Source of the DNA: Clostridia bacterium
GTDB lineage: Bacteria; Bacillota; Clostridia; Oscillospirales; CAG-272
Length of the DNA stretch: 58,074 nt
Direction: 5' to 3'
Assembly: GCA_017403155.1 (NCBI GenBank)
Contig: JAFQOP010000002.1
Span: 1-58,074 of the forward strand
The notes beneath the pieces are model-generated. The model had not been told where the DNA came from, did no database searches, and saw only the letters and a program-made list of their open reading frames with translations. Numbering within the stretch: position 1 is the first letter of the stretch; every line of letters begins with the position of its first letter. The position numbers and the translations under genes are program-made. Positions 346 through 9,539 of the stretch are shown in pieces.

Positions 346-432
346 CTTACTCTCCGCACGCTAGCAAATTCCCTTATTCTAAGGACACCGTCAAGGTGTC
401 CTGCTTTCTGTTTTCATGTACCTCGCACACTC
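346..432 (+). repeat. Direct repeat unit B (pair with 142-229)
   Basis: This is the second copy of the roughly 87-nt unit. It contains a GGACACC-GTCA-AGGTGTCC hairpin. Its 3' half, 394-430, recurs perfectly at 8335-8371 on the far side of the AT-rich gene block. Between units A and B lie further short inverted repeats, such as ATACCGCC/GGCGGTAT near 271-290. Confidence 0.7.
394..430 (+). repeat. Left 37-nt direct repeat, candidate attL
   Basis: This starts AGGTGTCCTGCTTTCTG and ends CCTCGCACAC, identical to 8335-8371. Sequence differs immediately on both sides of the two copies, apart from the shared GGACACC hairpin arm upstream. It is a candidate attachment-site remnant or simply another copy of the local repeat family. 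Confidence 0.55.
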
Positions 433-504
433 TCGAACTACTTCGTAACAGATAAGTTGTTCGGATTTGTTTTTGTTTTAATTATTTGTTTTAATTCATA
501 AAAT

Positions 505-550
505 AAAAGTCTGTATGCTCTTCAAATCAATCGAGTCATACAGACTTTTT
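505..550 (-). terminator. Terminator after the Panacea operon
   Basis: Inverted repeat AAGTCTGTATG/CATACAGACTT with a loop of about 20 nt. On the minus strand it follows the stop codon at 563 and ends in a T-rich tract (TTTTATTTTA). It closes the leftward two-gene operon. Confidence 0.65.
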
Positions 551-562
551 GTTTTGCTTTAT

Positions 563-1327
563 TTATATTTTTGAGTAAAAAACAAAGGTTAATGTTATCA
601 GCACACCGTTGATTACAATATATAATATCCAAGGAATTGCAGATCGCATTTTGCTCCACGATAATTTAGTTATAAAAGACATCAATATCGCAACCACATT
701 AGCAAATACCACGCCAAGCAGGCAAACAATGAACCCTAATTGAGAGATATTTACATCGGTTAAATTGGAAAGAGCTTCTCCGATAGTAGAAGTAGCAAAA
801 GAAAATGTTACTACGATACCTGCAAAAATACCTAAAATAGAAATTAACTGTTGAGATAGCTTCCCGGCTTTCTCCTCTGTATCTCCAATGCTTGTTTTTG
901 CTCTTTCCAGCAACTTGTTAGATTCTTTATATGTCGCATTTGCTTCAGCAGAAACGACCTTAATTTGATAAATGCTGGATAACCTAGAAGATTCCAATTC
1001 TATGTGATCTGCTAATTTAATGATTTTTTTGTAACATTCCTTGTTTTCGGGTTCTGTTTCGTCTTGATCGTATAAATTCTTGCGAGCATCTTCCAAAATT
1101 TGCACCATTCCTTCGCGAAGACGATCAAATACATCCGGTGTTTTTTCCGACAAGTGTTTGGATATATCCGAATATCTGTGTCTATCGATTCTAATATAAA
1201 ACGCTTTAAATTTTAAAAAATACTTGTCAGATATTTCTCTAATTTTGTCAGTGTCTATTGCCTCTATAGCATTATGATATGTATCATCAGCAATAATTGA
1301 ATCCAACAAATCAAGTAATTCTGTCAT
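563..1327 (-). CDS. Coiled-coil protein with C-terminal membrane segments, candidate PanAT toxin
   Basis: A 254-residue protein, not matched to a named family. Residues 1-110 are soluble and charged, about 110-150 looks like coiled coil, and the last roughly 95 residues form three hydrophobic helices (near 162-183, 195-220 and 232-252). Its ATG overlaps the stop of the upstream Panacea-domain gene (ATGA), indicating translational coupling. Panacea (DUF4065) proteins are known antitoxins that pair with diverse toxins, some of them small membrane-acting proteins. From position and topology I infer this is the toxin partner, perhaps acting at the inner face of the membrane. Alternative: an accessory membrane anchor with no toxicity. 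Confidence 0.55.
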   Translation of the reverse strand: MTELLDLLDSIIADDTYHNAIEAIDTDKIREISDKYFLKFKAFYIRIDRHRYSDISKHLSEKTPDVFDRLREGMVQILEDARKNLYDQDETEPENKECYKKIIKLADHIELESSRLSSIYQIKVVSAEANATYKESNKLLERAKTSIGDTEEKAGKLSQQLISILGIFAGIVVTFSFATSTIGEALSNLTDVNISQLGFIVCLLGVVFANVVAILMSFITKLSWSKMRSAIPWILYIVINGVLITLTFVFYSKI

Positions 1328-1764
1328 ACATTAATCTCCAAGGGGTTGTTGGATGCAAAAAATTTTTTAATTGATTGTTTGGTAATAATATGTCCTGAAG
1401 CTGCAGTTTTCCAGGGAGCTTCACTATGCGTTTTATTAACCAAAGATGAAGATGCAATGTTTTGACACTTCTCAACAATCTTATCTATAAGCTCACTCTC
1501 ATCCGTTGTAAGCATCACCGAGTCTTCATTGGTTGATACAAGTGGTTTTGAACCAAAAAGATTGTATTCATAATATGCAATTGGAACTACTGGACCATAT
1601 TGCCAACAATATATTTCTTCTGGAAATGCTTCTCTATTAAACTTTTTGAAGAAATACCCCTGTACATAATAGAGTATTTTTTGAAGTTTTAAATTTGTGA
1701 TTTTTTGTTCGTTTTCCTCGAACAGTGAAATAATATGATTTGACAAAGATAGTACATTAATCAT
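1324..1764 (-). CDS. Panacea-domain (DUF4065, SocA-like) antitoxin
   Basis: About 146 residues. The Panacea signature is clear: ITNLKLQKILYYVQGYF near residues 22-38, then an acidic stretch, CWQYGPVVP and a YYEYNLFG segment. This family (SocA/GepA-like) neutralises a partner toxin by direct binding and is found in prophages and integrative elements. I chose ATG 1764: it has GAGG eight bases upstream, gives a family-like N-terminus, and a TTGAAT-17-TACAAT promoter lies just upstream. An in-frame TTG at 1851 with its own GGAGG would add 29 atypical residues and would start upstream of that promoter. It forms an operon with the overlapping downstream membrane gene. Confidence 0.85.
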   Translation of the reverse strand: MINVLSLSNHIISLFEENEQKITNLKLQKILYYVQGYFFKKFNREAFPEEIYCWQYGPVVPIAYYEYNLFGSKPLVSTNEDSVMLTTDESELIDKIVEKCQNIASSSLVNKTHSEAPWKTAASGHIITKQSIKKFFASNNPLEINV

Positions 1765-1809
1765 ATTTTTATCCTCTTTCTTTTCTTTTCCGTACACTCG
1801 TCCAAATAT

Positions 1810-1838
1810 ATTGTAACACAAAGTTTTCAAAAATTCAA
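1810..1838 (-). promoter_or_regulatory. Promoter of the Panacea/toxin operon
   Basis: -35 TTGAAT (1833-1838), 17-nt spacer, -10 TACAAT (1810-1815) on the minus strand. The hexamers are identical to those of the recombinase promoter at 6774-6802. It lies inside the TTG-extended reading frame, which argues for the start at 1764. Confidence 0.55.
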
Positions 1839-1952
1839 GTATATTCAACAAAATCCTCCTTTCTTGCCCTAAAATTTACAAAAATTTACTAATTATTATG
1901 TTAATCTAGTTGTTAATTATCACATTCTAACATATCAAATTTAAAAAATATG

Positions 1953-2252
1953 TTATTCCATATGGTTAGCCTTTTTAAGTGATTTTTTTATGTTTATCGA
2001 TTCACTTCTCCATTTTTCAAATTCTTCTTTTCCTTTATCCGATTCAAGAAATTTTATAATATCAGGCAATAGACAACGTGCGATTTCTTTAAGCAATTCA
2101 TCTGGAATTTCGCACTCACCATGATTATCTATCAGCTGTTCTTCTATACGTTTTATTATCTCCGTGAGTTGCCATTGAAACTCGGGTTGAATGCCCGAAG
2201 ATTTGTCTTTGAGTAAAGATACCAGTCTATCTTTGATTGTTTTTAAGTTCAT
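1953..2252 (-). CDS. Hypothetical 99-residue helical protein
   Basis: Small, charged, mostly helical protein. I do not recognise a family, and there is no cysteine cluster, signal peptide or membrane segment. The start is supported by AGGAGG six bases upstream of the ATG. It lies between the Panacea operon and another small unknown gene on the same strand, with about 190 nt upstream of its promoter-proximal neighbour and AT-rich DNA downstream (1853-1952). It is probably an accessory gene of the integrative element. Confidence 0.6.
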   Translation of the reverse strand: MNLKTIKDRLVSLLKDKSSGIQPEFQWQLTEIIKRIEEQLIDNHGECEIPDELLKEIARCLLPDIIKFLESDKGKEEFEKWRSESINIKKSLKKANHME

Positions 2253-2271
2253 TTATTCCTCCTAATTTACT

Positions 2272-2459
2272 GACGTACGAATTGACATACACTTTTACCT
2301 TGTAAACACTGACTTTTTGCTCTTTCTGACATACAAGTCTACCACCAGCGGTTTTTACCGACGTACACTTTTTGAAAGAGGCAAAAGTGCGAAAATCCCT
2401 TACACTGTCGGCTCTGCCGGCAGATGTGATATGGGCGAAAGTCGGTTACCGACGTACAC
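2272..2459. repeat. Iterated GAC[G/A]TAC motif in non-coding DNA
   Basis: Five copies of GACGTAC or GACATAC occur at 2272, 2284, 2328, 2360 and 2451, two of them inside a longer shared TTACCGACGTACAC. A GTCGGTTACCGAC palindrome sits at about 2441-2453. The stretch 2253-2499 has no convincing gene. The repeats could be protein-binding sites or relics of a duplicated spacer. Confidence 0.4.
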
Positions 2460-2499
2460 CCTTTCTCCTGCTTTGAAATCGATAGCATCAAACGTGCTA

Positions 2500-2859
2500 T
2501 TATTTGCCGTATTTTTGTTCCCAAAGAGTCTTTTTTACATTGGGTTTCGGCTCACTTATTGTTGCGCTCACCTCGGTGGTTTTGCCAATTAGCTTGTTCA
2601 TCTGCTGCCTGGCTTTCTCACGCTTTTTGTCCGACGGCGGTTTCATGCATCTAAATGTAAAACTGTCTTTGTTGATTTCAAATACCAAGCATCCAATCTC
2701 ATCATCAGAGATGAGTTTGCAAAGTTCGGGGCACTCTTTTGAAAAGTCTAGTAATCTGTTTTTTAGCTTCGTGTTATAGGTTGATATTGTTGTAATATCA
2801 TCTGCTTCGTTGAAGTAAATTTCGGTTGTTTTTTGCTTCTTTTTAAGTCCTGTTATCAT
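2500..2859 (-). CDS. Small conserved mobile-element protein of unknown function
   Basis: 119 residues. It opens with an ITGLKKKQKTTEIYFNEADD-type segment, which resembles a small family I recall from clostridial mobile elements and phages that is sometimes labelled molecular chaperone without clear evidence. The first 65 residues look like an alpha/beta domain; the C-terminal half is lysine-rich and helical. AAGGA lies upstream of the ATG. It is transcribed leftward with its neighbours, but 350 nt separate it from the zinc-ribbon gene upstream. I assign no function. Confidence 0.6.
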   Translation of the reverse strand: MITGLKKKQKTTEIYFNEADDITTISTYNTKLKNRLLDFSKECPELCKLISDDEIGCLVFEINKDSFTFRCMKPPSDKKREKARQQMNKLIGKTTEVSATISEPKPNVKKTLWEQKYGK

Positions 2860-3209
2860 AATTGTCCTTTCTTGATATGATGGTCGTTTTTGGGCAAAAA
2901 GCCTAGGTCTATAGCGTGGAAATTTGCGATTTTTTCGAATGACGAAAGCATTTTTGTATCTATATTCGTGTTTTCTCTCAAATTGGCAAAACTTGCAATT
3001 TCTTAGGTCTATACCTCATTTTTTAAGAAGCGATTTTTAGGCTTTTTAGAATGTTTTTTCTTTGTTTTAGGCGGTATATTTTTTTACCACTTCTGCAATT
3101 AATAAAGGTCGATACAACTAGCATTAACATAGCGTCAAACTATGTCACATTGCTATTTGTATCGACCCTTTTATTTCCCGAATTCACTGCCGGGAGGATG
3201 AGTTTCTTT
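2860..3209. other. 350-nt gene-free stretch with hairpin and short repeats
   Basis: There is no coding potential that I trust. It contains a TAGGTCTATA direct repeat at 2904-2913 and 3004-3013 (exactly 100 nt apart) and the long hairpin annotated at 3101-3175. It is AT-rich throughout. Confidence 0.5.
3101..3175. repeat. Long imperfect hairpin, 75 nt
   Basis: Outer arms AATAAAGGTCGATACAA (3101-3117) and 3157-3175 pair over 17 bp with a 2-nt bulge. Inside, TAGCA/TGCTA (3119-3123 with 3151-3155) and ACATAG/CTATGT (3127-3132 with 3140-3145) continue the stem to a 7-nt loop. It lies 34 nt beyond the stop of the zinc-ribbon gene, so it may terminate the SOS operon, encode a structured RNA, or be a recombination site. 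Confidence 0.6.
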
Positions 3210-3431
3210 TCACTGTACTGTTACAAGCGGGGCTGCAGTATGTAATGGTTTGATAGTTAAACCAACTATCTTTCTGCACTTCGGGCATTGAATAAAATAA
3301 TCTGCGCTATCGGTTACTGTTAACTCGAGTGAATTCTTAAGCGTAGGTGTTCTTGAATCCACGACTCGCGAGTCGCAATAAGGGCAACGAGATTTCGGCA
3401 TTTGTTTTCTGCCGTCATCGTTTTTCTTCAC
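3210..3431 (-). CDS. Small zinc-ribbon protein
   Basis: 73 residues with two CxxC knuckles (CPYC and CPKC) about 33 residues apart, the pattern of a zinc ribbon. The GTG at 3431 is chosen because GGAGGT lies seven bases upstream; an ATG 30 nt further upstream would overlap the LexA-like gene and lacks a site. It is the last gene of the SOS-box operon, one base downstream of the LexA-like stop codon, so likely translationally coupled. The function is unknown; zinc ribbons this size often bind DNA, RNA or a protein partner. Confidence 0.6.
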   Translation of the reverse strand: MKKNDDGRKQMPKSRCPYCDSRVVDSRTPTLKNSLELTVTDSADYFIQCPKCRKIVGLTIKPLHTAAPLVTVQ

Positions 3432-3432
3432 T

Positions 3433-4065
3433 TCAACACCTCCTTCGTTTAGGGGCTTCAAGATTTTTAAGAACTCGTACGGCTACACCCTGAATATCAA
3501 CTTTACTTACTATGATATCGTCGAAGTTGTCGTTTTCAGGACGAAGGACATATCGATTGTTTTCCTCGTCTCGATAAAATCTCTTTAGAGTGGCATAGTA
3601 ACCATCTGTTAGATCATCTTGAATAATTGCAACAACGATCTCTCCATCTTCTGCGGTGGATTGCTGGCGAATATAAACGGTGTCTCCTGCGCAAATTCCT
3701 GCATTAATCATAGAATCACCATCCGCAATAAGACCAAAGTATTCTCCGGGGCCGAGACTTCCTTCATCAATCGGAATATAACTTTCTATGTATTTTGCTG
3801 CAAGTATTGGTTCTCCACATGCTATACGACCAACAACAGGCATCCTTGAACACGATATATTTCCTGCTGCCTTTATTTGATACCTACCAAGCTTTTCGAT
3901 AAGTCCATCGTCGATAAGACGATTTCTATACTTAGAAGCTATAGATTTTGCCATTCCAAGTTTGTTGCCAATTTCTTGAACAGTAGGGTACACACCATAT
4001 TCTTTCATATATCTGGTCATGAAATTGTAAACTTCCATCTTACGACTGTCATTTTTGTGGCGCAT
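3433..4065 (-). CDS. LexA-like self-cleaving repressor
   Basis: 210 residues with full LexA architecture: an N-terminal winged HTH (about 8-65, including the TVQEIGNKLGMAKS recognition region) and a C-terminal S24 peptidase domain. The catalytic dyad is Ser118 (GDSM) and Lys161 (TLKR). The scissile site in VGRIACGEP is Cys83-Gly84, as in UmuD, rather than the usual Ala-Gly of LexA. It sits in an AT-rich accessory block downstream of a perfect GAACN4GTTC box, so it probably represses its own operon and is cleaved on RecA activation. It may be an element-encoded paralog; the window cannot show whether the host has another LexA. Confidence 0.88.
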   Translation of the reverse strand: MRHKNDSRKMEVYNFMTRYMKEYGVYPTVQEIGNKLGMAKSIASKYRNRLIDDGLIEKLGRYQIKAAGNISCSRMPVVGRIACGEPILAAKYIESYIPIDEGSLGPGEYFGLIADGDSMINAGICAGDTVYIRQQSTAEDGEIVVAIIQDDLTDGYYATLKRFYRDEENNRYVLRPENDNFDDIIVSKVDIQGVAVRVLKNLEAPKRRRC

Positions 4066-4083
4066 ATATATATATACTCCTTT

Positions 4084-4785
4084 TCAGTATAATGCATAAA
4101 GTATAGAATCTCTATAATACGAGTTGAGGCAAATCGATACCGCATCAATTACAATAAACTTTCCGTCTTGGTATTCCAATATGTATAAAAAATCGTTGCA
4201 TATGAATGATATGAAAGTATCGTGTGATACTTTACTACTTCTAAACTTAAATGCATTATACAACAATGTGTGCAAATATCTTATAACCAAAACAGTTTGC
4301 ATGTCCGTTGTGATTTTTATGGGAAGGTAAAAAAACACATTTTTCTCGGTTTTTAATATCTTGCAAAAAGCTAGCACATCACTATTTGTGATTTTACTTT
4401 CATAGTTTAGAAAATCATCCAAAGAGTATTGAAAAAGCAAATTATGTAATGGGGTTTTAGGTGGCTCTTTCTTGGCGTTAGGATTGTCATATGTAAAAAT
4501 AAAACCCTCTTTCATGTGAGTTCGGTCTATGGTGGGAGCGAGGTCATTCTTTTGTTTCATAACAGACGACGCAACAATAAGCTTGAAGTCGAAAGAGTAA
4601 TTATCCCCAACGGCATCACACTCACCATGATCCTGCTTCTTTGAGTGAGTAAAAGAATGGCAACCAACTCTTTTGTGAAAATTCCACGCATATTCAATAA
4701 AGTCCAAAAGCATTACTTCGTAATCAAAATGATTGGCTTTATTATTTTTTGTTGCATAAAAGGGTAAATCTTCAACTTTAAACAT
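4084..4785 (-). CDS. Unknown SOS-box-controlled protein, possible nuclease fold
   Basis: 233 residues, family not recognised. A segment near residues 58-74 reads CDAVGDNYSFDFKLI, which fits the D-(x)n-[D/E]xK spacing of PD-(D/E)XK nucleases and is preceded by a helix; this is weak, motif-level evidence only. No membrane segment or signal peptide. ATG 4785 is preferred over one at 4815 because AGGTG lies just upstream and the earlier ATG overlaps the SOS box. It is the first gene of an operon with the LexA-like repressor (18-nt gap) and is placed to be strongly induced by DNA damage. Confidence 0.6.
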   Translation of the reverse strand: MFKVEDLPFYATKNNKANHFDYEVMLLDFIEYAWNFHKRVGCHSFTHSKKQDHGECDAVGDNYSFDFKLIVASSVMKQKNDLAPTIDRTHMKEGFIFTYDNPNAKKEPPKTPLHNLLFQYSLDDFLNYESKITNSDVLAFCKILKTEKNVFFYLPIKITTDMQTVLVIRYLHTLLYNAFKFRSSKVSHDTFISFICNDFLYILEYQDGKFIVIDAVSICLNSYYRDSILYALY

Positions 4786-4808
4786 TTTGCACCTGCTCGC
4801 CTGTGTGA

Positions 4809-4858
4809 CGAACACGAGTTCGTGTTAAAATTATAACACAAAGAATTCTTCCTGTCAA
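4809..4858 (-). promoter_or_regulatory. SOS box and promoter of the LexA-like operon
   Basis: On the minus strand: -35 TTGACA (4853-4858), 17-nt spacer, -10 TATAAT (4830-4835), then CGAACTCGTGTTCG (4809-4822), a match to the Gram-positive DinR/LexA box GAACN4GTTC. The box begins seven bases after the -10, covering the likely transcription start, and ends 23 bases before the start codon at 4785. Repressor binding here would block initiation. Confidence 0.85.
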
Positions 4859-4907
4859 TAGCTTATTATCAAAAACATTGTTGCTTTAGAAATAGAAACC
4901 ACATCAC

Positions 4908-4959
4908 TTGATTTATAGCATCTTATATGTTATAATAAACACAACGGAACGTTGAGTTC
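4908..4959 (+). promoter_or_regulatory. Divergent promoter of the XRE gene with near-SOS box
   Basis: -35 TTGATT (4908-4913), 17-nt spacer, -10 TATAAT (4931-4936). Around the expected start lies GAAC-GTTGA-GTTC (4947-4959), which resembles a LexA box but with five rather than four central bases. It could be a weak LexA site or an operator for the XRE protein itself. Confidence 0.55.
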
Positions 4960-5035
4960 ATGTTGCGAATTAGTATCTTCAAAAACAGACCGTTTTTTTG
5001 ATATACTTATTGTAACGAAACAGAGGAGGTGCTGT

Positions 5036-6163
5036 ATGCAACATTCAATTGGAAAAACGATAAAAGAACTTCGTAAAAGCCGAGGTCTTACTCAAGAAGA
5101 GCTTGCAGAGAAAATTGGTGTTACCGCACAAGCTATTTCTAAATGGGAGAACGAAAGCGGAATGCCTGACCTTTCGCAAATCGTTCCATTGGCGCATGTA
5201 TTTGGTGTTAGTACGGATACAATTCTCGGAACTGGAGATATAAAGAAAAACGAGGATATTTCGGAAATAATGAGGAGAGCGCAAAGCAAACTCACATTTC
5301 CTTTGACCATCGAGTGCTTGACCGACAAATACAATGTGCTGCTTGAGGGATTAGAGATCTACCCAAACAACTTTACACTCCTTATAAACTGTATGGAGAT
5401 TGAAATTTCGCTCGCATATCCGCAAAATCCTGTTTATGATGCGAAGAACGCAAAAGCTCTTTATGAAGCCTGTGAAAAACACGCAAACACCATCTTTTCT
5501 TACGATGATAACGTAAACAGAATACTTCGCGCCCGAATGATAATGCTTATGCTCCACTGTGCTAACGGCAAATTTGAAGAAGCAAGAAGACAAGCTGAAA
5601 AATTTCCGTCAAGGGCGGATTTCAATATCCATAAAATGTACTCCATTCACGCCCATTGGCAGAAGGATTACAAGACCGAGATTACAAGCTGGCAGTTTTA
5701 TATAATGAATTTACTCCATGCCCTTTTGTACGGTGCAGTCAGCCTCGGCAAAGCTTATGATCTGACAGAGGAACCTGAGAAGGCGATGGATATATACAAG
5801 CGTTTGATAAGAATGCTCGACATTATATTTGAGGGCGAGACGAAGATGCCCTTCCACCACGTTGAAGGCGGAGATATATACGTTCTTCTCGCAGAAAAAG
5901 CGATAGAACTTGGCAATGCGGAATTAGCGATTGACTCGCTTGAAAAAGCCATTAAATATGATGTTGAAGAAAAAGAGAATCTTATTGCTTCCAACTTTAA
6001 AATAGAATCTCCGTTCCTTTCAAATGTCGGAGGGCGCTTGGGTGACAGATACCAAAATCTTGATGAGATAATGTCCAAGGAATGCTTTGCCACTCTTAAA
6101 GATAACGAGCGTTACAAAAAACTGTTGATTGATATCGACGCCTTTAAAGAGAGGTTAAAATAA
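5036..6163 (+). CDS. XRE-family HTH regulator with TPR-like C-terminus
   Basis: 375 residues. Residues 6-60 form a classic Cro/C1-type HTH (LTQEELAEKIGVTAQAISKW, then LSQIVPLAHVFGVSTDTILG). The remaining 300 residues are helical with TPR-like repeats, the layout of PlcR/Rgg-like regulators that sense peptides, though no ligand is evident. The start at 5036 is set by AGGAGGTG eight bases upstream; an earlier in-frame ATG at 4952 has no such site. It is divergent from the SOS operon and its stop overlaps the next start (TAATG). It could act with the LexA-like protein as a two-repressor switch; that is inference. Confidence 0.8.
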   Translation: MQHSIGKTIKELRKSRGLTQEELAEKIGVTAQAISKWENESGMPDLSQIVPLAHVFGVSTDTILGTGDIKKNEDISEIMRRAQSKLTFPLTIECLTDKYNVLLEGLEIYPNNFTLLINCMEIEISLAYPQNPVYDAKNAKALYEACEKHANTIFSYDDNVNRILRARMIMLMLHCANGKFEEARRQAEKFPSRADFNIHKMYSIHAHWQKDYKTEITSWQFYIMNLLHALLYGAVSLGKAYDLTEEPEKAMDIYKRLIRMLDIIFEGETKMPFHHVEGGDIYVLLAEKAIELGNAELAIDSLEKAIKYDVEEKENLIASNFKIESPFLSNVGGRLGDRYQNLDEIMSKECFATLKDNERYKKLLIDIDAFKERLK

Positions 6164-6579
6164 TGTTCTTTGCCACTTCCAGAAAACTCAAAAAGATTAT
6201 AGGAGATGCTCCCAAACAAAACCTCGAACATTTTTACTTGTACAATTTAAAAATTAACGATATTGCCGTTAATCTCTATGTCAGCAAAAAGAGAGCTACG
6301 AAAGCAACGCATATTCACTGCAACGAAAGCGGTGATATAATGTGGGAGCAGTTTTACCTGTTTGGTGGCATGTCAAGACCAGCACGAGAAAAGAAATATG
6401 TGTTGAAGCCGATATGTGATAGGACTGTGATTTCTGTGGTGATTATACGTGGAAATCCAGGCATTATCGTTGGTTTGGATGGTTTAATAAAATCACACAA
6501 CAACGTACCGAAACCAAATAAGATATTTCTGATGGTTGAGCGTAATGCTATGGATTTTTTGCGACCCATATTTAGCTAA
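6163..6579 (+). CDS. Hypothetical protein coupled to the XRE regulator
   Basis: 138 residues, no family recognised. Mixed alpha/beta, basic, no membrane segment. Its ATG overlaps the stop codon of the XRE gene by one base, so translation is probably coupled and the two proteins likely work together. A terminator follows directly. Candidates by context are a partner of the regulator or a toxin-like effector; nothing in the sequence decides. Confidence 0.55.
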   Translation: MFFATSRKLKKIIGDAPKQNLEHFYLYNLKINDIAVNLYVSKKRATKATHIHCNESGDIMWEQFYLFGGMSRPAREKKYVLKPICDRTVISVVIIRGNPGIIVGLDGLIKSHNNVPKPNKIFLMVERNAMDFLRPIFS

Positions 6580-6583
6580 AAAC

Positions 6584-6609
6584 AAAGCCTCGGATCTCGA
6601 GGCTTTTCT
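6584..6609 (+). terminator. Terminator after the XRE operon
   Basis: AAAGCCTCG/CGAGGCTTT stem with a short loop, followed by TTCTTTG. It separates the regulator pair from the recombinase. Confidence 0.7.
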
Positions 6610-6773
6610 TTGTTTAGTGCTGTAATTTTTTTTTGCAACTCTCAAGCTCTTTTTCATTGATTTAGGCATAGTGATTTTTCAAGTTTTAGTGGCAATATCG
6701 TAATGAGATGTACCTGGATGTGCACACCATGCTAAAATCGAGGTGTTTTGGCAAAATAAGTAGTTAAAAAGAC

Positions 6774-6802
6774 TTGAATATCAGAGAAGTTTATGCTACA
6801 AT
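6774..6802 (+). promoter_or_regulatory. Promoter of the serine recombinase
   Basis: -35 TTGAAT (6774-6779), 17-nt spacer, -10 TACAAT (6797-6802), 34 nt upstream of the recombinase start. Both hexamers equal those of the Panacea operon promoter. Confidence 0.6.
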
Positions 6803-6836
6803 CAAACCACAAATTTTAGGGAAGGGGTAAGAGTAA

Positions 6837-8232
6837 ATGACGGGTGTAATTTATGCGAGATATTCCTCGGACAATCAGCGTGAGGAATCGATCGAGTGGC
6901 AGATTCGTGAGAATACTGCTTTTGCCGAGAAGAACGGTATTGTTATCGTTGGGCACTACATAGACAGAGCCGTTTCCGCGAAAACGGACAACCGCCCCGA
7001 GTTTCAGCGTATGATACACGACAGTGCGAAGAAGACCTTTGACGTAGTCATAGTTTGGAAGCTTGACCGCTTTTCGCGTAACCGCTACGACAGTGCGAAA
7101 TACAAGGCTGCTTTGAAGAAGAACAATGTTCGCGTTGTTTCTGCAACAGAGGCAATCTCGGAAGGGGCAGAGGGCATAATTCTTGAGTCCGTGCTTGAGG
7201 GTATGGCAGAATACTATTCAGCCGATCTTGCAGAAAAGGTAACACGGGGTTTAACCGAGAACGCCTTAAAATGCCGTTTTAACGGTGGCAACGGTCTGCC
7301 TTACGGTTATAACCGTTAACGAGGAGAAGCACTTCCAAATTGACCCCTTAAAAGCTCCCATAGTGGCTGAAATCTTTGAGCGTTACGCTCAAGGTGAGTC
7401 AATTACGGAAATTGTACATAGCCTGAACGCGCGAGGACTCAAAACGCAAAAGGGTAAAGCATTTAACCACGGCACACTCAACCGAATGTTTACCAATAAA
7501 TCATATATGGGAGTGTATCACTATAGCGGCATTGAAATTCCGGGCGGTGTACCTGCGATAGTGTCCGAAGATACCTTTAAGGTAGTCGAAAGGCGAATGG
7601 CACAGAACAAGCACGCATCCGCTAAAAACAAGGCGGAAGAAAAGTACGTGCTGACTACCAAGCTTTTCTGTGGAAAGTGCCACAGCATGATGGTTGGAGA
7701 TTCCGCACAAAAGAAAAACGGCAATATCTATCGCTACTACAAATGCGCCAGCGCGAAGAGGCACGAATGCGATAAAAAAGCCGTTCGTAAAGAATGGATT
7801 GAAGAGCTTGTGCTGAATAAGGTTATCAAGGTTCTGTTTGATGACGAAGCTCTCGATAAGATTGCTGACGAAATAGTCGCTCTGCTTGATGAGGACAACA
7901 AGGTAATACCGCTTCTTGAAGCTCAGCTCAAGGAAGTTCGCAAGTCCATCGACAACGTGATGAAGGCTATCAAGGCAGGAATTATCACTCGTTCAATCAA
8001 GGCAAAGCTCGAGGAGCTTGAAGCCGAGGAAGAGCAAATCGAGCTTAATATTTTGAAAGAGCAGACAAGCTCTCCCAAGCTCACGAAAGAACAGATTTTA
8101 TTTGCATTAGACAAATTCCGTAAACTTGACTTAACAATTGAAGCAAATAAAGAGCGTTTGATTGACAGTCTTGTGAAATGCGTTCTACTTTATGACGACA
8201 AGCTTGTAATAACCTTTAATTTCAAAAAATGA
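6837..8232 (+). pseudogene. Large serine recombinase, frameshifted
   Basis: The first 160 residues (6837-7319) carry the resolvase catalytic domain with nucleophile Ser10 in YARYSSDNQ and the LDRFSRN motif. The reading frame then moves by one base near 7311-7314: the text continues in the next frame as VNEEKHFQIDP, the normal continuation. The downstream part holds the recombinase DNA-binding domain, a zinc ribbon (CGKC followed by a second Cys pair, about 7670-7770) and a coiled coil. With one base removed it would be about 464 residues, a usual length for this family. The frameshift is a real inactivation or a sequencing error; programmed shifting seems unlikely, as no slippery run is seen. 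It probably integrated the surrounding element. Confidence 0.85.
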
Positions 8233-8306
8233 GCCTGTAACCGTTCCCACGAGCGAGAAATTTGACGCAATAGAGAAAAGTTCGGATATTGAAGCGTTTG
8301 CTTCAC

Positions 8307-8359
8307 CATGAAACAGAAAGCAGGACACCCTTCGAGGTGTCCTGCTTTCTGTTTTCATG
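8307..8359. repeat. 23-bp-arm palindrome at the element's right end
   Basis: Left arm CATGAAACAGAAAGCAGGAC...ACC (8307-8329) and right arm 8336-8359 are reverse complements apart from one bulged T, with the 6-nt loop CTTCGA. The right arm is part of the 37-nt repeat; the left arm is therefore an inverted copy of it. The left-end copy at 394-430 lacks this extended inverted arm. It may be a recombination site, a bidirectional terminator, or both. Confidence 0.75.
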
Positions 8360-8371
8360 TACCTCGCACAC
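8335..8371 (+). repeat. Right 37-nt direct repeat, candidate attR
   Basis: Identical to 394-430 over 37 nt. It lies 103 nt beyond the recombinase stop codon and just before AT composition returns to the host level. Confidence 0.55.
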
Positions 8372-8388: not shown

Positions 8389-8420
8389 AAAAAAACGGAC
8401 ACCGTTGGTGCCCGTTTTTT
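8389..8420 (-). terminator. Terminator of the macro-TIR gene
   Basis: ACGG.CACC/GGTG.CCGT stem with a 3-nt loop, A-rich on the left and T-rich on the right, so on the minus strand it ends in a T7 tract. It sits 15 nt beyond the stop of the macro-TIR gene. Confidence 0.75.
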
Positions 8421-8434
8421 GTTATGTTTTTACG

Positions 8435-9478
8435 TTAATTAAGCTCTTTTACTATCGAGTCAACGAACTCCTCGAGCCTCTGCTCGATGGGAGGGATATG
8501 CGCGTCCATCCAGTGCTGACGGGAGAGATAGTAGCTGAAGGCGGGGGCGAGGTCGGCGGTGTCGATACGCAGGGGCTTGAACTTGATGTCGTTCGGCAGG
8601 CGCTTGAAGGCCAGGTCAATCTCGTTCAGCACGTGCTCGGAGAGCATACACTCACGGCTCAGTATTACTATAAAGTGAGTTGCCTTTTCTATCGCCTCCG
8701 CTATCGCGGTGGCATATGCACCCTCTACGTTTCGGGGTGCGTACCACACGCGCATACCGCGCGACTCGAGCTTAAAGCAGAGGTTGTCCGCTACGTTGCG
8801 GTTGGGCGTGGTGTAGCTTATGAAGGCAAGGGGTGTACGCGCGGACTTCTTCGGCTCGCTTGCCTCGAGGAAGAGAGCATAGGAGCTCTCTATCGCGCTG
8901 ACAAAGGCTTTTGCCTTTTTCTCACTATATTCGATGAAATACATATTTTTCACACTCTCGTTGCGCTTGAGGAATGCTACGCACTCGTTGATAAGCGGTG
9001 TGATTATTAGATTCTCCGACAGCTGCTGCTGACCCGTGCCAAGGAGGGGAAGCGCGACGTTGTCCATCTTAACCCCCGAGGCGGAGGCGATATCAAGCAG
9101 ATGGAAGTACGCCCTGATAGAGGATAGAAGAGCCTCCTCGTCAATCGAGTAGAAGCTGCGGCTGTCGAGCTTGTATCTGCTCTCTATGCATCCGATGCGG
9201 CGTATCATAGAGGTGCCCTGCTCTATCTTTTCGGAGAGCCAGACGTTGCTCGTCCTTCTTAAATCTATATACGGCTCCTCGGCAAGCTGCTCCACGCTGA
9301 TGCCAATTTTGGCAAGAGCGCCGTACAAGGAGCCGGGAGTTGGATTGTATCCGCCGGGAAAGGCGGAGGTTGTCAGCACGTCTATCGGCAGCTCAACCCT
9401 TGTAATATCCTCACATATAACCGAAAGCGACTTCTTTCCGTAGGCTGTGGAAAGCTCTATATTAAAAAGCTCGTTCAT
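8435..9478 (-). CDS. Macro-domain / TIR-domain fusion protein, candidate NADase defence protein
   Basis: 347 residues from the ATG at 9478 (GAGG just upstream; an ATG four codons earlier fits less well). Numbering from that earlier ATG: residues about 25-200 look like a macro domain (VLTTSAFPGGYNPTPGSL, then VALPLLGTGQQQ and a FIEYSEKKAKAF end), the ADP-ribose-binding fold. Residues 221-330 are a TIR domain (LAFISYTTPN, RVWYAPRNV, FIVILSRECMLSEHVLNEIDLAF) with the likely catalytic Glu290 present. Bacterial TIR domains cleave NAD+ or make ADP-ribose-type signals, and macro domains bind such molecules; in type II Thoeris separate TIR and macro proteins work as signal maker and receptor. I infer a single-chain immune or stress protein. 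It is monocistronic, beside the integrative element. Confidence 0.8.
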   Translation of the reverse strand: MNELFNIELSTAYGKKSLSVICEDITRVELPIDVLTTSAFPGGYNPTPGSLYGALAKIGISVEQLAEEPYIDLRRTSNVWLSEKIEQGTSMIRRIGCIESRYKLDSRSFYSIDEEALLSSIRAYFHLLDIASASGVKMDNVALPLLGTGQQQLSENLIITPLINECVAFLKRNESVKNMYFIEYSEKKAKAFVSAIESSYALFLEASEPKKSARTPLAFISYTTPNRNVADNLCFKLESRGMRVWYAPRNVEGAYATAIAEAIEKATHFIVILSRECMLSEHVLNEIDLAFKRLPNDIKFKPLRIDTADLAPAFSYYLSRQHWMDAHIPPIEQRLEEFVDSIVKELN

Positions 9479-9509
9479 CTCATTCCTCACTTCTGATGTT
9501 TCTGTATTT

Positions 9510-9539
9510 AGAATAACATAAAGGAAGCGATTTTGTCAA
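9510..9539 (-). promoter_or_regulatory. Promoter of the macro-TIR gene
   Basis: Minus-strand -35 TTGACA (9534-9539), 18-nt spacer, -10 TATTCT (9510-9515), about 32 nt upstream of the start codon. No operator-like repeat was noticed, so low constitutive expression is plausible. Confidence 0.5.

Follow-up and report, generated by a model that had tools for sequence, protein, structure and literature searches.

What does a bacterium do with a single protein that joins a macro-like domain to a TIR domain, and does the gene's place beside a mobile element mark it as part of a defense system? The question arises in a stretch of 58,074 nucleotides from a Clostridia bacterium (hereafter the window, meaning the whole stretch that was analyzed). 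A sequence-only reading of the window had described a gene at 8435-9478 that carries both domains in one chain, had tied it to type II Thoeris, and had proposed that the protein might make and sense its own signal or protect itself from it. The gene is indeed there, and its features and those of the adjacent element are as follows.

8435-9478, reverse strand: macro-TIR gene, an intact open reading frame of 347 aa with its ATG at 9478 and its stop at 8435
8879-9478, reverse strand: N-terminal divergent macro-like domain, approximately residues 1-200, with the LPLLGTG loop (143-149), D24, S38 and Q151, assigned from profile-profile and family alignments
8498-8824, reverse strand: C-terminal TIR_2 domain, residues 219-327 (PF13676, E=4.3e-16, 59.9 bits against a cut-off of 28)
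9510-9539, reverse strand: sigma-70-like promoter, TTGACA-18-TATTCT, just upstream of the macro-TIR gene (consensus match only)
8394-8406, reverse strand: terminator-like hairpin with a T run, just downstream of the macro-TIR gene (consensus match only)
6837-8232, forward strand: large serine recombinase in two overlapping frames, frameshifted; part of the neighboring element, not of the macro-TIR gene
395-430, forward strand: left copy of a direct repeat, 36 nt, exact
8336-8371, forward strand: right copy of the direct repeat, 36 nt, exact; probable right end of the neighboring element

Residues are numbered from the ATG throughout. A GTG at 9490, 12 bases upstream, is an alternative start that would give a 351-aa version; the PLLGTG motif that had been placed near 148-153 is present, follows the GTG numbering, and corresponds to 144-149 from the ATG.

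The gene and its surroundings

The macro-TIR gene is preceded by its own promoter-like sequence, which suggests that it may be expressed as a separate transcript. The region has two terminator-like hairpins; shuffled sequences average 2.1.

Next to the gene, positions 395-8371 form a probable integrative element of about 8 kb. It is AT-rich and contains a LexA-like repressor, a SocA-like gene, an RstR-like regulator, and the serine recombinase. Two copies of a 60-nt sequence (142-201 and 346-405; 204 bp apart, 90% identical) lie just to the left of the element end. The 32-nt core of the direct repeat, with up to three mismatches allowed, was found nowhere in the 87%-complete assembly but in the repeat copies at 395-430 and 8336-8371. 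The 36-nt repeat overlaps a hairpin and has a third copy, 60% alike, at 185-227; a length of 36 nt is long for the att core of a large serine recombinase, and the sequence could be a host repeat rather than the end of an element.

We considered the macro-TIR gene as cargo of this element and rejected the idea. Its stop codon is 63 bp past the right repeat copy, and its GC3 of 0.684 resembles that of ten host-side genes (0.588-0.687) rather than that of eight element genes and gene pieces (0.267-0.533). Since the gene lies outside the repeat and has a host-like GC3, it is probably chromosomal and outside the mobile element, and the nearness of the element is not evidence of defense. The position beside a mobile element had thus been read correctly, whereas the defense role drawn from it was not supported; no integrase, moreover, was seen among the ORFs beside the relatives, as inspected by eye.

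No partner gene was seen to recur. Among 38 neighbor proteins from six loci, families were present in at most two loci among the matches listed (the best 25 of 97 for Pfam and the best 25 of 26 for PADLOC). The earlier remark that no effector gene is adjacent to the window gene was supported. The 38 neighbors were mostly ordinary chromosomal genes, with no defense island. Further loci (L002 and L083-L085), inspected by eye, had surroundings that looked unrelated and no recurring gene. For the acetyltransferase gene next door in the window, a possible marker of an empty element site, no shared neighboring gene appeared in the 13 related loci examined. Individual loci had their own companions: the Sel1-repeat gene upstream of macro-TIR in L016 stops 7 bp short of it, and L018 and L019 each have a further TIR gene, at a distance of about 3 kb and 0.7 kb, respectively, with nothing recurring in the same place. 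In L083/L086 the macro-TIR gene is preceded, on its own strand, by an ORF that looks MutT/Nudix-like by eye, and none was seen beside other members; Nudix enzymes can act on ADP-ribose.

No CRISPR or CBASS gene was noticed among the ORFs adjacent to the window gene, inspected by eye, and ThsA_Macro had no match in the window's own genome (87% complete). Neither the neighboring genes nor searches of that genome with ThsA_Macro and TIR_2 offered a candidate for a ligand-making enzyme; the genome does hold three other TIR_2 genes.

The two halves of the protein

The TIR half was the easier to assign. E286, within the motif S-E-H-V-L-N-E286-I, aligned with the Glu of solved TIRs, e.g., TIR-STING and TLR1, and a Glu was kept at this position in all 10 TIR-bearing family members. 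We take the position to be that of the catalytic Glu, as in SARM1-type TIRs; it is the same residue that the sequence-only reading had named, in the GTG numbering, as the likely catalytic Glu290, and it is intact. From these residues, the TIR half of the window protein is probably an NADase. Across 28 pairs, the mean pairwise identity was 68% (59-87) for the TIR and 45% (36-75) for the macro half, and the TIR half is therefore the more constrained of the two. The same genus also has TIR domains joined to BspA-like repeats and to other domains; by eye, three loci (L006, L008, and L082) combine a TIR with BspA-type leucine-rich repeats, and one of the three belongs to the genome of the window.

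The N-terminal half was less readily recognized. Pfam placed no family on it, its macro families matched none of the eight family members (E up to 1), and, with the same limit, ThsA_Macro (PF20016) matched neither the window protein nor any of the seven relatives found first. Single hits gave weak signals: the PARP14 macro domain 3vfq matched the window protein at E=0.0037, falling to 0.16 with an eight-sequence profile, and the NCBIfam O-acetyl-ADP-ribose deacetylase family matched residues 112-198 at E=0.03, far below its cut-off. Profiles gave clearer evidence. An HMM built from the eight N-terminal domains, run against 398 genomes of the phylum, recovered, besides the gene itself, nothing but a canonical macro protein in each of two genomes. 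These two macros matched at E=9e-5 and 6e-4, both confined to positions 113-198, and are near-identical and from one genus.

Profile-profile comparison pointed the same way. Against eight macro proteins the score was 43.1 (probability 86.6), but one of these (L021) had come from the query's own profile; when it was left out, the seven independently found macros gave 35.1 (probability 57.7) over 83 columns, a score reached by none of 100 column shuffles (maximum 18.7). Extending the profile to 11 members raised the score against the same seven to 37.4 (probability 69.7) over 148 columns, spanning residues 19-187, and again none of 60 shuffles came as high (maximum 19.3). The 38 neighbor proteins, used as decoys, scored at most 22.8. 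Taken singly, four of the eight macros (three of the seven independent ones) exceeded the best decoy, as did one of 10 ThsA macros. Against the ThsA macros as a set, the score was 26.0 (shuffle maximum 22.7), or 28.7 with the 11-member profile (shuffle maximum 23.4); canonical macros themselves scored only 25.0 against this set, so the lower ThsA score does not settle the macro subgroup. On these alignments, membership of the N-terminal half in the macro superfamily is well supported, though not proven. The single-chain combination of macro-like and TIR domains was thus borne out, by the PF13676 match for one half and by profile-profile homology for the other, even though the macro half is invisible to Pfam. 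In five other loci from the same genus or order (L023, L024, L025, L026, and L030), a canonical MacroD-type domain is followed by a C-terminal extension of about 150-200 aa, shared as judged by eye, that ends near EALFAFDQSLLG.

We then compared the putative ligand pocket with that of EcThsA, whose described ADP-ribose contacts include D83, L113, S217, G218, and T220 (PMC11204291). The equivalents D24, L51, T148, G149, and Q151 were placed on these contacts by eye alignment, with D24 corresponding to D83, position 51 to L113, and G149 to G218. D24 was an Asp in six of eight members and was replaced by Ala and Glu in the two Coriobacterial proteins, while position 51 was Leu, Val, or Met and position 148 Thr, Ser, or Gly across the eight. 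Of the members found later, L085 has Asp at D24, L084 has Asn, and L083 is unreadable there. G147, G149, and Q151 were invariant across all 11 members. The family thus appears to have partly retained EcThsA-type ADP-ribose contacts.

The comparison with hydrolytic macro domains pointed elsewhere. The NAAN asparagines and the glycine-loop residues are marks of these enzymes, and neither were conserved in the family alignment. Because these residues are lost, we infer that ligand binding fits the N-terminal domain better than hydrolysis does. The window protein shares profile homology with MacroD-type macros (PF01661) over the 148 columns given above, but differs from them in that their hydrolase loops are not conserved in it and it has no Pfam match.

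A hydropathy scan with a 19-aa window found no convincing N-terminal membrane segment in the window protein, whose maximum of 1.13 falls inside the TIR. Ten ThsA proteins reached 1.48-2.81 on the same measure, all within the first 106 residues. The other ten family members had maxima of 1.14-1.79, which overlap with the two lowest ThsA values; none of these lay in the first 80 residues.

The family and its DUF4145 member

The homolog and neighbor search that had been proposed for this gene yielded ten relatives from Bacillota, Coriobacteria, and further genomes, again without a recurring partner: nine are macro-TIR proteins, and the tenth joins the N-terminal domain to DUF4145. Seven of the relatives are full-length and share 46-50% identity. 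One of these seven comes from the same genus, and the gene was present in two of 36 genomes of the genus (the window's own included) and in two of 59 genomes overall; eight further genomes had TIR-only matches. The other six, found in a search for close relatives only, belong to Clostridia, Lachnospiraceae, Solobacterium, Clostridiales, Coriobacteriales, and Coriobacteriaceae records, two of them from goat gut samples.

Searches with the N-terminal profile brought to light few others. Own-genome matches apart, no further members were detected in 394 genomes of the order, in 398 genomes of the phylum (canonical macros also set aside), or in 296 genomes of the class of a Coriobacterial member, while 397 genomes of the family of a Lachnospiraceae member contained three more. 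The distant members L083/P0004 (partly unread owing to a run of N) and L084/P0002 are macro-TIR proteins. No relatives were found in viral contigs (queries P0001, A2, and P0003), plasmids (query P0001), or phages (queries P0001 and P0003). When P0002 was searched against plasmids, 13 records matched, all within query residues 176-309 only, a stretch that covers the TIR and the edge just upstream of it. In a tree of eight proteins, the window protein clustered (100/99) with the proteins of G017 and of the goat-cecum Clostridia record; the remaining five stood separately, and within them the two Coriobacterial proteins paired (99/99). The family looks rare and patchy, and the macro-TIR fusion, as recognized from sequence, is kept across phyla.

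The tenth relative (L085/P0003; G1344:C45:2211-2777 and downstream, from the Lachnospiraceae survey) differs in its C-terminal part, which matched DUF4145 at 33.6 bits against a cut-off of 23.1, while its N-terminal domain retains the family's 18 invariant columns. DUF4145 has been treated as a domain of the HEPN superfamily, described in fusions with restriction modules and with a TIR in one of the cases listed (PMC3710099). Since the N-terminal domain here sits on DUF4145 without a TIR, the putative sensor need not read a TIR product. This one protein suggests that the N-terminal half may be an interchangeable sensor.

A similar exchange has been described for AbiJ-NTD, an N-terminal module shared among HEPN/DUF4145, TIR, and nuclease effectors (PMC3710099); the macro-like module shows the DUF4145/TIR part of that exchange. 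AbiJ-NTD1, however, is described there as mostly alpha-helical, in contrast to the macro-like module of this family.

A proposed ligand-gated TIR effector and its alternatives

The explanation that we favor, with slightly better than even confidence, is that the protein is a ligand-gated TIR effector with an N-terminal macro-like sensor. The ligand of the macro-like domain would be a nucleotide that contains ADP-ribose or is related to it, or else an ADP-ribosylated molecule, and its source would lie outside the window protein. Binding would alter the oligomeric state and bring the TIR domains together, and the assembled TIR would hydrolyze NAD+, thereby stopping the cell or the infecting phage. 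Depletion of NAD+ by the TIR itself would be the simplest output. The ligand class, gating by oligomerization (by analogy with Cat1, a CARF-TIR protein), NADase activity, and a defense role are what we infer for the protein. TIR NADases are described as depending on self-association (PMC12847820), and Cat1 as a proven ligand-gated TIR filament (PMC12162218). In Cat1, TIR-SAVED, and STING-TIR, as presumably here, a nucleotide-binding sensor is joined to a TIR, and the expected action would be the same, ligand-gated TIR assembly followed by NAD+ loss; the sensor of the window protein is macro-like, as opposed to CARF, SAVED, or STING. Because the neighbors of the relatives are mostly ordinary chromosomal genes, the proposed defense role rests on domain type, and the fusions of TIR to BspA-like repeats in the genus indicate that a TIR need not mean immunity.

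Several other readings of the same protein have to be weighed against this one. Many macro domains are ADP-ribosyl or OAADPr hydrolases, and the macro half might accordingly act as an eraser or antidote that hydrolyzes the TIR's ADP-ribose products and protects the host. The NAAN and glycine-rich loops of such enzymes are not conserved, however, so that the self-protection that had been suggested seems very improbable by way of hydrolysis. A non-immune role would make the TIR an interaction module without NADase activity in a signaling protein or scaffold whose macro domain reports the metabolic ADP-ribose state. The ordinary chromosomal neighbors of the relatives and the BspA-like fusions in the genus would suit this role, but the conservation of the catalytic-position Glu in 10 of 10 proteins speaks against it, and a rare, patchy distribution across phyla is more accessory-like than expected of core metabolism; we consider it unlikely.

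Closer to what the sequence-only reading had in mind is a self-contained, Thoeris-like circuit, in which the TIR would make an ADP-ribose-type signal that the macro domain of the same or a neighboring molecule binds, resulting in positive feedback or self-restraint. In the type II Thoeris circuit, the TIR protein is described as able to make ADPR and imidazole adenine dinucleotide, and the ThsA macros as binding both (PMC11204291); the weak profile similarity to ThsA macros (28.7 with the 11-member profile, above its shuffle maximum) points the same way. Yet L085 carries the same sensor on DUF4145, with no TIR to feed it, and since the window protein has no convincing membrane segment and its 87%-complete genome no ThsA_Macro match, a sensed signal would be left without a separate output. 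We therefore give such a circuit little credence. It is mainly because of L085, a single protein, that we depart from the proposal of a protein that both produces and detects its signal, while the tie to type II Thoeris found no support in view of the missing ThsA_Macro match, in protein and genome alike, and the lack of a convincing membrane segment. Alternatively, as a special case of the favored explanation with a macromolecular trigger, the macro domain may read a protein or nucleic acid that a phage or toxin ADP-ribosyltransferase has ADP-ribosylated, and thereby trigger the TIR. Many macro domains are described as reading ADP-ribosylated macromolecules (PMC11204291), and the trigger may be external, given that no gene for making a signal was noticed alongside; the ThsA pocket, on the other hand, is described in the same source as unable to bind mono-ADP-ribosylated proteins, and we regard this version as distinctly unlikely. 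Overall, the evidence favors a macro sensor with an exchangeable effector over a protein that makes and senses its own signal.

In type II Thoeris, as in the window protein, a TIR (ThsB) and a macro domain (the TM-macro protein ThsA) form one functional unit, encoded by two adjacent genes rather than one chain, and in both the macro domain probably binds an ADP-ribose-type ligand. ThsA macros are described as forming higher-order oligomers on ligand (PMC11204291). The ThsA macro protein is, however, membrane-anchored and is itself the effector, whereas in the window protein, with no convincing membrane segment, the TIR is the likely effector. For comparison, a Vibrio pectenicida plasmid (L034, 2016-3346) carries adjacent TIR and macro genes with a one-base overlap, a type II Thoeris-like pair. 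Macro domains also appear in print as components of other bacterial conflict systems (PMC7159879, PMC8195603). A macro-TIR fusion was not described in the open-access papers searched, the nearest match being the two-protein type II Thoeris.

A broader proposal, which we put forward tentatively and as somewhat doubtful, is that the divergent macro domain may be a portable immune receptor that gates different killing domains, a TIR NADase in the window protein and a DUF4145/HEPN-type domain in L085. The family would then represent a partner-free, ADP-ribose-sensing class of abortive-infection proteins in Bacillota and Coriobacteria, triggered by an ADP-ribose-type molecule or by ADP-ribosylation during infection. 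If the ligand-gated reading is true, with a macro domain as the input, ADP-ribose-type molecules would join the range of direct TIR-gating signals, and one protein would merge two functions that type II Thoeris splits over two. The macro-DUF4145 relative raises the more general question of whether the macro-like domain may be a swappable receptor.
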